A stretch of DNA of 33,660 bases from Oscillospiraceae bacterium (lineage in GTDB: Bacteria > Bacillota > Clostridia > Oscillospirales > Acutalibacteraceae): contig JAISUW010000014.1 in assembly GCA_031271865.1 (NCBI GenBank), positions 1 to 33,660 of the forward strand, in the 5' to 3' direction. Positions 16,587 to 21,632 of this stretch are shown piece by piece (the first letter of the stretch is position 1; every line of letters begins with the position of its first letter). The notes below the pieces were generated by a model. The model was given only the letters and a program-made list of their open reading frames with translations. It had not been told where the DNA came from and made no database searches. Position numbers and translations under genes: made by a program.

Positions 16587-16644
16587 AAGCGACTCCCTTT
16601 TGCAAATAAATAAAGGAACCTAAACACGTCCCACACTGTCTTAT

Positions 16645-16690
16645 AGACGTAAACAAAATACAGCGGCAAAAAGCCGCCATCAAATGGAGG
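16645..16690 (+). promoter_or_regulatory. Leader motif and hairpin of peptide gene 1
   Basis: AGACGTAAA (16645-16653), then a hairpin GCGGC-AAAAA-GCCGC (16663-16677), then the GGAGG ribosome binding site (16686-16690). The same order is found before peptide gene 2 (17049-17093), where the 9-mer is identical but the hairpin arms have completely different bases. This points to conserved RNA structure. Confidence 0.65.
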
Positions 16691-16699
16691 ATACATACC

Positions 16700-16864
16700 A
16701 TGTTTGAAGCAATCTTTGGCTGGGCTGACGGTATTATCGAGTGGGTCGCCGACTTTCTGCAAGGCCTGTTTGATGCCCTCGCGAGTTTCCTGCCCCAAGT
16801 GAACTGGGACTTCGTGCCGGAAGTCATCCAAACGCTCCGCGACTTGACAGGTGCCGCCGTCTGA
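16700..16864 (+). CDS. Small acidic amphipathic peptide 1 (54 aa), unknown
   Basis: A 54-aa peptide that opens MFEAIFGWADGIIEW and continues VADFLQGLFDALASFLPQV, then NWDFVPEVIQTLRD. It has two or three tryptophans, many Asp/Glu and only one Arg, so it is strongly acidic. The first ~33 residues would form an amphipathic helix with Asp/Glu/Gln on one face and Ile/Leu/Phe/Trp on the other. No signal-peptide cleavage site, Gly-Gly leader or cysteine is present. A strong GGAGG lies 9 nt before the ATG. It is about 45/54 identical to peptide 2 downstream. By composition it recalls phenol-soluble modulin beta peptides or leaderless bacteriocins, but I recognise no family. It may be on the clp transcript; a terminator follows at 16905. 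Confidence 0.75.
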   Translation: MFEAIFGWADGIIEWVADFLQGLFDALASFLPQVNWDFVPEVIQTLRDLTGAAV

Positions 16865-16904
16865 TTCGCTTTCCTGCCTATCCTTTCTATACCGGCAACA
16901 TAGA

Positions 16905-16944
16905 CTGCACCTCCCGTTCCCGTACGGCGGGGTGCAGCTTTTTC
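16905..16944 (+). terminator. Rho-independent terminator after peptide gene 1
   Basis: CTGCACC (16905-16911) pairs with GGTGCAG (16931-16937), with further C/G pairing inside, and CTTTTTCC follows directly. It closes the cvpA-pgsA-clp-peptide 1 series before the separate promoter of peptide 2. Confidence 0.8.
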
Positions 16945-17005
16945 CAAAGCAAGCAAGAAATGAAAACTGTTACACATATTTCATATAAAATCCATAGAAT
17001 AACTA

Positions 17006-17034
17006 TTGACAGAAATGGTTATGTGTGCTATAAT
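17006..17034 (+). promoter_or_regulatory. Consensus promoter of peptide gene 2
   Basis: TTGACA (17006-17011), 17-bp spacer, TATAAT (17029-17034), with TGC extended -10. It is a perfect sigma-A match and among the strongest in the window, implying high expression. Transcription would begin near 17041, just before the AGACGTAAA leader motif. Confidence 0.9.
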
Positions 17035-17048
17035 TAGGTTATCTTTAC

Positions 17049-17093
17049 AGACGTAAATCAAATTGTAGGGTTTGCCTACAAAAACAGAGGAGG
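17049..17093 (+). promoter_or_regulatory. Leader motif and hairpin of peptide gene 2
   Basis: AGACGTAAA (17049-17057), hairpin TTGTAGG-GTTTG-CCTACAA (17063-17081), and AGAGGAGG ribosome binding site (17086-17093). Compared with peptide 1 the loop is again 5 nt and the hairpin again sits 4-8 nt before the ribosome binding site, but the stem bases differ. Confidence 0.65.
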
Positions 17094-17101
17094 ATATGTG
17101 T

Positions 17102-17275
17102 ATGTTCGACGTAATCTTTGGCTGGGCTGACGGCATCATTGAGTGGGTGGCCGACCTTCTGCAAGGTCTGTTCGATGCCCTCGCGAGCTTCCTTCCCCAA
17201 GTGGACTGGAGCTTCGTGCCGGAACTCATTCAAACCATCCGTGACGCTACGGGTGCAGCCGCCGCCGCTGTCTGA
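17102..17275 (+). CDS. Small acidic amphipathic peptide 2 (57 aa), unknown
   Basis: A 57-aa paralogue of peptide 1. It opens MFDVIFGWADGIIEW, shares the block GLFDALASFLPQV and then diverges mildly (DWSFVPELIQTIRD), ending in a run of alanines and Val. The similarity extends to the DNA and to the leader, so the pair is a recent tandem duplication under protein-level constraint (most changes are conservative: E/D, V/L, L/I, F/L). An in-frame ATG at 17096 would add MC; the 17102 start aligns with peptide 1 and lies 8 nt after AGAGGAGG. It has its own consensus promoter and is followed by a long hairpin at 17309. No homologous family is recognised; a membrane-active, signalling or Clp-linked role is inference only. 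Confidence 0.78.
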   Translation: MFDVIFGWADGIIEWVADLLQGLFDALASFLPQVDWSFVPELIQTIRDATGAAAAAV

Positions 17276-17308
17276 GTGACAGCCGCACCTGTGTAAACAG
17301 GAAACCAA

Positions 17309-17350
17309 GTGCCCCGGTGCATTGAATTCAATTCAATTGCACCGGGGCAC
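17309..17350. terminator. Long hairpin after peptide gene 2
   Basis: GTGCCCCGGTGCA (17309-17321) is perfectly complementary to TGCACCGGGGCAC (17338-17350). The pairing can extend inward through ATTGAAT/ATTCAAT with one bulged T. The total stem is about 19 bp with a tiny loop. No T-run follows, so it may stabilise the peptide mRNA rather than terminate strongly. Confidence 0.6.
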
Positions 17351-17408
17351 ATTGCGCTGGTAAGTTCTGGAAAAATGACGATATATGACGGTTTTCGACA
17401 ATTAGTGA

Positions 17409-17436
17409 TTGACAAATGCGCAGAATGTGGTATAAT
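17409..17436 (+). promoter_or_regulatory. Promoter of the SanA/YdcF-like gene
   Basis: TTGACA (17409-17414), 16-bp spacer, TATAAT (17431-17436), TGG extended -10. Because transcription should start near 17443, an ATG at 17449 would have almost no leader. This favours a downstream start. A GGGAGAG/CTCTCCC hairpin (17477-17498) lies in the leader. Confidence 0.8.
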
Positions 17437-21216: not shown

Positions 21217-21632
21217 GGGGATGAAAGGATTTCGACGGGGATCTCGAAGGTAGGTAAGCGGGCTGTCTTCTCCGGACAGACAATAAACGCCGGTACCGTC
21301 TAATAAATGACGAAGATCAGTATCTCCTCGCTGCGTAAGTAACCGCCGGCTGCCAGCAGCCGGGCGGCGAAGCGGGAAGCGCAAGCTCCCGCCGACCCAA
21401 GTGTCCAGCGCGTCCGCCCCGGAGTGCCTCGGCCGGGATACGGGCGTCATCAGAGGCGTACGTGCGTGAGATTGCGCTTCCGGGTCTCACCATGCAGATA
21501 CGGCAGCTACCGTAACGCGAAGCTTCTGCCTGTACGGCGGCGCGTGAGGGGAATCCAAACGACAGGCTCCGCCCGAAGAAAGCTTATCGGACAGATTTTC
21601 GGACGCGGTTTCAATTACCGCCATCTCCACCA
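21217..21632 (+). ncRNA. ssrA: Transfer-messenger RNA (tmRNA)
   Basis: A 416-nt one-piece tmRNA that rescues stalled ribosomes together with SmpB. The acceptor stem GGGGATG (21217-21223) pairs with CATCTCC (21622-21628, one G-U), followed by discriminator A and an encoded CCA (21630-21632). The 5' part GGATTTCGACGGGGAT and the T-arm GCGGT-TTCAATT-ACCGC are diagnostic. The tag reading frame ends with Asn-Asp-Glu-Asp-Gln-Tyr-Leu-Leu-Ala-Ala and TAA (21306-21338); the resume codon lies upstream and I cannot fix it by eye. Several pseudoknot-like GC stems fill 21340-21540. A perfect 17-bp hairpin follows. Confidence 0.95.

Follow-up and report, generated by a model that had tools for sequence, protein, structure and literature searches.

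Tandem acidic amphipathic peptide genes behind a diverged Clp ATPase: a putative lineage-restricted small-protein pair in an Oscillospiraceae bacterium

We wondered whether two short, unannotated open reading frames in the draft genome of an Oscillospiraceae bacterium encode real proteins and, if so, what such proteins might do. Both frames lie on contig JAISUW010000014.1, which was taken whole as the window of this analysis (33,660 bases); the genome comprises 2.4 Mb in 70 contigs and is 93.8% complete. An earlier model-made reading of the DNA, the sequence-only reading, had singled them out as tandem peptide genes, and both were confirmed where it had placed them, one of 54 aa (P1) and one of 57 aa (P2). 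They are located between the gene of a Clp ATPase and a DUF218 gene (Table 1). According to Pfam, the nearest neighbours in the window are a CDP-alcohol phosphatidyltransferase, Clp, DUF218 and SIS/GATase proteins.

Table 1. Features of the P1/P2 locus, in window coordinates.
Feature	Position	Strand	Basis or remark
ClpE-like AAA+ ATPase gene, diverged, probably co-transcribed with P1	13839..16586	+	Pfam AAA and ClpB_D2-small above cut-off
Leader element of P1, 19 nt, common to the P2 leader	16641..16659	+	direct repeat D2, 84%
P1 leader hairpin, 5-bp stem, 5-nt loop	16663..16677	+	stem as long in 479/2000 shuffles
Shine-Dalgarno GGAGG of P1	16686..16690	+	read from sequence
P1, 54-aa acidic amphipathic peptide gene	16700..16864	+	ORF; purifying selection; codon usage
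Intrinsic terminator 3' of P1, GC-rich stem then CTTTTT	16905..16943	+	-23.4 kcal/mol
P2 promoter, TTGACA-17-TATAAT with TG before -10	17006..17034	+	12/12 consensus match
Leader element of P2, in predicted 5' UTR	17045..17063	+	direct repeat D2
P2 leader hairpin, 7-bp stem, 5-nt loop	17063..17081	+	stem as long in 432/2000 shuffles
Shine-Dalgarno GGAGG of P2	17089..17093	+	read from sequence
P2, 57-aa paralogue of P1	17102..17275	+	ORF from ATG, Shine-Dalgarno site well spaced; 45/54 identical
Long GC-rich hairpin 3' of P2, without T run	17309..17350	+	13-nt perfect arms
DUF218 gene	start 17449 or 17542, end 18294		neighbour 3' of P2

A block of 160 nt is 84% identical between the two copies at an offset of 402 nt, and alignment of the two translations reproduced the identity that had been claimed for them. 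The copies differ at 26 of 162 bases, distributed as 6, 4 and 16 over codon positions 1, 2 and 3; 14 of the changed codons are silent and 9 change the amino acid. The replacements had been described as conservative, which holds for most of the nine (within the first predicted helix they are E/D, A/V and F/L) but less so for D to S, L to A and N to D. The dN/dS ratio of the pair, a check named in the sequence-only reading, was 0.17 by NG86 (dN 0.096, dS 0.568), about 0.18 by LWL85 and about 0.30 by YN00. In the other five frames NG86 gave 1.61, 1.75, 2.05, 0.30 and 4.17; the frame with 0.30 is antisense and interrupted by a stop, and the other four exceed 1.6. When the substitutions were placed anew at random in 20,000 trials, nine or fewer amino-acid changes resulted in 4 of them and a stop was created in 45%.

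Codon usage was compared as a score per codon, which amounts to 0.262 and 0.245 for the two peptide genes and to 0.169-0.288 for 11 window genes, the same genes from which the codon-usage table was built. None of 468 wrong-frame open segments scored as high as P1 and P2. Such host-like usage argues against their having arrived very recently from a compositionally different genome. The ribosome binding sites are strong, as had been claimed, with GGAGG 9 nt (P1) and 8 nt (P2) ahead of the ATG. It might be objected that the two frames are spurious, or that they represent conserved non-coding or antisense sequence, given that long antisense ORFs overlap both and that no credible homologue was found in the other genomes searched. 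We consider this extremely improbable in view of the in-frame purifying selection, the codon usage and the translation signals carried by both copies. The sequence-only reading had counted a lack of homologues against the genes; outside the pair this is what was observed, yet selection as seen between the two copies still favours real genes. P1 and P2 are genuine small-protein genes, apparently lineage-restricted, that arose by tandem duplication and have since diverged.

How far the restriction goes was assessed in overlapping genome sets that include the genome itself, namely 14 genomes of the genus, 300 of the family, 394 of the order, 396 nearest relatives and 391 of the class, with E-values stated per genome. 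Apart from the P1 and P2 copies, the own genome returned one match at E 0.71. Within the genus, weak matches were obtained in 6 of 13 congeners at E 0.025-0.093, where 1.3 are expected at E 0.1. All six lie within long frames of larger proteins, two of them in the same protein, and we read them as chance. One congener's predicted lipoprotein (L005 1129-2058, genome G008) has a 37-residue stretch that resembles the middle and the end of P1/P2, and shuffled queries scored as high in 1 of 2000 cases for P1 and in 0 of 2000 for P2. This protein was picked at E 0.044 from a one-genome search; we did not accept it as a homologue and regard it as a lead that is not significant alone.

Beyond the genus, matches were below chance expectation in every set: 10 of 299 other genomes of the family at E up to 0.1, 9 of 393 in the order at E 0.05, 1 of 395 among the nearest relatives at E 0.02 and 3 of 390 in the class at E 0.01. 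The ten family/order loci and three class loci that were inspected turned out to be long frames without relation to P1/P2, alternative-frame stretches or frames interrupted by stops; two of these loci encode the same membrane protein of roughly 100 aa. Scans of genome-collection and viral contigs, which need nearly exact matches of 7-8 residues and detect close relatives only, returned nothing, nor did tblastn of phages and plasmids with P2. The best hit of a PDB sequence search had E 0.55. Matches in Pfam, NCBIfam and PHROGs were all weak, the best at E 0.0067, and the Pfam and NCBIfam ones fell below the cut-offs. No known family had been recognised in the sequence-only reading, and none was found in these three collections or in the genomes searched. 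P1 and P2 look like orphans, with no credible relative from genus to class.

Orphan status as such is unsurprising because species-specific small-protein families are common; among the families analysed in the GMSC catalogue, 39.7% are given as species-specific (PMC11364881). P1 and P2 resemble such families in being small and orphan. They differ in forming a duplicate pair, through which selection can be tested internally. Internal proof that an orphan small protein is real is seldom available, common as such proteins are, and the purifying selection seen in the pair supplies it. With members in a single genome so far, the family offers a clean case for asking how new bacterial peptides arise and persist.

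The perfect consensus promoter claimed for one of the two genes is that of P2, and we infer that P2 is a transcription unit of its own. The same scan, run from 16500 on, detected no promoter-like site before P1 and no terminator-like site on the plus strand between clp and P1. The terminator region behind P1 (16860-16960) has a folding z-score of -3.05. Because P1 has no promoter match, no terminator intervenes and a strong one follows, P1 is most simply, and probably, the final cistron of the clp operon. Behind P2, the hairpin region (17276-17370) reaches a folding z-score of -5.56. We discarded the idea that this hairpin is a genome-wide repeat: three other single-arm matches with 1-2 mismatches were found, and the two inspected have no inverted repeat. 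The DUF218 gene is preceded by a second 12/12 promoter, TTGACA-16-TATAAT, at 17409-17436, about 400 nt past the P2 promoter.

Both leaders contain a common 19-nt element, and a pattern derived from its core occurs at only these two sites of the genome at up to 2 mismatches. The start that the sequence-only reading had given for the locus, 16645, falls inside the P1 copy of this element. The stem sequences of the leader hairpins differ between P1 and P2. Stems as long arise in 22-24% of shuffles, so the hairpins were not accepted as proven structure, and a conserved leader hairpin is only suggested.

We asked whether the peptides might work together with the neighbouring ATPase, since the sequence-only reading had named them as possible Clp substrates or adaptors. 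The ATPase is presumably ClpE-like, a name that we base on its N-terminal CxxC pairs; the NCBIfam Clp models match it, but below their cut-offs. A strong match to the protein is present in 250 of 300 family genomes (own included). We examined 37 other Clp loci, 10 from congeners and 27 among the best-scoring family matches, for downstream ORFs of 25-80 aa on the clp strand with a Shine-Dalgarno-like site (3 of the 37 have less than 300 nt of downstream sequence). Judged by charge and amphipathicity, none of the 37 carries a P1/P2-like ORF downstream of clp. Both strands were listed for the 10 congener loci only. At ten DUF218 loci of congeners, too, no P1/P2-like peptide was seen beside the gene. 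The clp-peptide synteny that had been proposed as a check in related genomes is accordingly not shared (0 of 37 loci). By eye, a pgsA-like protein was recognised upstream of clp, as in the window, at no fewer than 4 of the 10 congener loci. As no P1/P2-like gene was seen at the 37 other loci, the lineage-specific part is the peptides and not the Clp locus.

The window Clp protein is itself diverged. Its frame comprises 918 aa versus 770-808 in nine congeners, the tenth being cut by a contig end; the frame of 905 aa at L076 is owed to an upstream open stretch, its protein starting only some 130 residues into the frame. The segment between the first zinc-finger cysteine and the IGR motif spans 295 residues; at the 31 loci, out of 37, for which this distance could be measured, it spans 137-207. 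The N-terminal linker is thus about 90-160 residues longer than in these 31 relatives, and the extra stretch is acidic. Mean identity of the window Clp to its congeners is 60.1%, versus 72.6% among congeners. Part of this divergence reflects a long species branch, because ClpC (71.2 versus 76.6) and DUF218 (46.5 versus 61.3, 7 of 11 loci) have diverged from the congeners as well. The ClpP-docking tripeptide reads PGF in the window Clp, (L/V/I)GF at 31 and MGF at 6 of the 37 other loci, and the ClpC-like paralogue of the same genome retains LGF. With the docking motif given as (L/I/V)-G-(F/L) (PMC8745299), the window Clp appears to depart from it.

Such an unusual Clp, with its longer linker and with PGF where all 37 others have L, V, I or M before GF, would suit the notion that P1 and P2 are clients, decoys or adaptors of the ATPase and that their C-terminal AAV acts as a weak ssrA-type degron. 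The probable co-transcription of P1 with clp points the same way, as does the AAV end, which is common to both copies although their lengths differ by 3 residues and which is described as an ssrA-tag variant used for destabilising GFP (PMC5732988). However, in the same source AAV belongs to the tags that destabilise less, and P2 is served by a promoter of its own. With its docking loop altered, this ATPase is also less likely to hand proteins over to ClpP, and no such peptide gene was seen downstream at the 37 other Clp loci, 3 of which have less than 300 nt of sequence there. The last point in particular weakens the earlier proposal, and we now consider a client or adaptor role distinctly unlikely. 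It is a long shot that ATPase and peptides form a two-part system specific to the lineage, in which the ATPase, having lost the canonical docking tripeptide and gained a long acidic linker, is a protease-free remodeller and the co-transcribed P1, together with its strongly expressed twin P2, is the dedicated self-assembling client or adaptor. Three congeners have, close to clp, an ORF of 27 aa that looks like SpoVM (L026 4316-4399, L028 4309-4392, L030 2957-3040).

The composition of the peptides agreed with what had been claimed. P1 and P2 each contain 8 acidic residues, one Arg and three Trp, have a net charge of -7 and are free of Cys. Neither has a basic N-terminus, and from this the absence of a leader was judged by eye. 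The hydrophobic moment of residues 2-31 is 0.599 in P1 and 0.588 in P2, compared with a shuffled mean of 0.172, and was reached by 0 and 1 of 20000 shuffles, respectively. Trp8 and Trp15 border the hydrophobic face of this helix, formed by F, I, L and V, with E, D, G and Q on the polar face. Amphipathicity is less marked in the second helix (p 0.015 and 0.027 against shuffles). AlphaFold predicted helices at 2-30 and 36-53 for P1 (two-row alignment) and at 2-30 and 39-56 for P2 (single sequence), with moderate pLDDT (73 and 77) and low pTM (0.38 and 0.44). Of the single amphipathic helix envisaged at the outset, the amphipathic segment was confirmed, but two helices rather than one are predicted. 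A PDB fold search with the P1 model retrieved no structure at E up to 10.

We speculate, at somewhat less than an even chance, that P1 and P2 are leaderless membrane-surface or self-assembling peptides that act much as the PSM-beta peptides of staphylococci do. At PSM-beta loci there are usually two to six related copies, whose products have no signal peptide; some of these products carry a net negative charge and show less or no antibacterial activity (PMC5585272). P1 and P2 are likewise short, amphipathic and net-negative tandem paralogues without an evident signal peptide, and the leaderless amphipathic helix in tandem copies is found in them, leader absence again being judged by eye. In contrast, they measure 54-57 aa versus 44 for the PSM-beta-family peptide in that source, have three Trp each and a net charge of -7, match no PSM-beta profile and come from a genome that, unlike that of staphylococci, carries sporulation genes. 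A Pfam scan of P1 and P2 at E up to 10 did not return the PSM-beta/Staph_haemo profile, and because this profile is unmatched we do not claim membership in the family. The earlier suggestion of a membrane-active peptide of PSM type thus keeps the acidic, amphipathic character and its place as best guess, but gains no profile match.

In the scheme that we propose, P1 would be read through from clp and both peptides would be made in quantity, without a leader. Each would fold into an amphipathic helix of 30 residues and a short second helix, lie on membrane surfaces or self-associate, and serve as a surfactant or matrix peptide in PSM-beta fashion. If the peptides are exported, a transporter encoded elsewhere would be needed; a small amphipathic PSM-like protein of S. 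aureus, encoded upstream of a lipase gene, is reported to use the PSM exporters (PMC12607899). Since antibacterial activity is reduced or absent in net-negative PSM-beta peptides, we favour a role at surfaces, in a matrix or in spreading over killing: with their negative charge, P1 and P2 are predicted to kill weakly or not at all, which makes a biofilm, surface or spreading role likelier than that of a bacteriocin. Several points count against a PSM-like mode of action. Membrane-lytic peptides would hardly be expected to be as acidic as these, with their net charge of -7, the amphipathicity also suits soluble helical hairpins or oligomers, and the AlphaFold models are of moderate confidence. 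In addition, no ABC transporter was found among the 22 window proteins scanned with Pfam; the sole transporter-type proteins among the 22 are MatE and MFS_2, 11-16 kb from P1/P2.

With no leader and no ABC exporter nearby, P1 and P2 might instead stay inside the cell and act as regulator or scaffold by binding to a partner protein or to the inner face of the membrane. The helical hairpin predicted by AlphaFold, the housekeeping-type neighbours and the apparent place of P1 within the clp transcription unit would all fit an intracellular function. A strong promoter and a duplication suggest dosage, though, rather than a trace regulator, and no P1/P2 gene was found in the relatives searched. We see an intracellular role as unlikely, yet as one to be weighed seriously beside the PSM-like reading. 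The signalling peptides suggested earlier could take the form of an Agr-type precursor, with an amphipathic N-terminal helix and an acidic tail. AgrD precursors are of similar size and have an amphipathic N-terminal helix, and their ring contains a central Cys. The resemblance of P1 and P2 to them is one of layout; they have no Cys and no AgrD match in the Pfam scan. AgrB (PF04647) was not found in the 93.8%-complete genome, by a search whose control was weak (a match in 1 of 14 genomes, none over the cut-off). The Agr reading is weakened accordingly, and we consider it very improbable.

Tandem, similar peptides of ~55 aa that contain Trp and have no evident leader also recall leaderless bacteriocins such as the aureocin A53-like group; two-peptide kinds of leaderless bacteriocin exist (PMC6131525), and a peptide of leaderless-bacteriocin type had been proposed in the sequence-only reading. 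Leaderless bacteriocins are reported to be net cationic (PMC6131525), whereas P1 and P2 are strongly acidic. Group ii circular bacteriocins are more acidic (PMC6131525), which means that acidity by itself is no argument against all bacteriocins; these circular ones, however, have leaders and dedicated clusters. In the Pfam scan, by which small immunity proteins would not be recognised, the 22 window proteins include no ABC transporter and only the distant MatE and MFS_2 proteins, and Pfam, NCBIfam and PHROGs yielded no family hits. The bacteriocin claim has lost ground, and a two-peptide leaderless bacteriocin or other antimicrobial peptide appears improbable to us.

The value of P1 and P2 lies in an internal duplicate that shows selection and in a testable physical prediction. 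If the PSM-like reading is true, such surfactant or matrix peptides would reach beyond staphylococci, to a lineage with sporulation genes. In the window, the Pfam scan identified SpoVAD and SpoVAC/SpoVAEB-family genes. The window also holds a tmRNA gene (21217-21632) with the tag peptide DEDQYLLAA.
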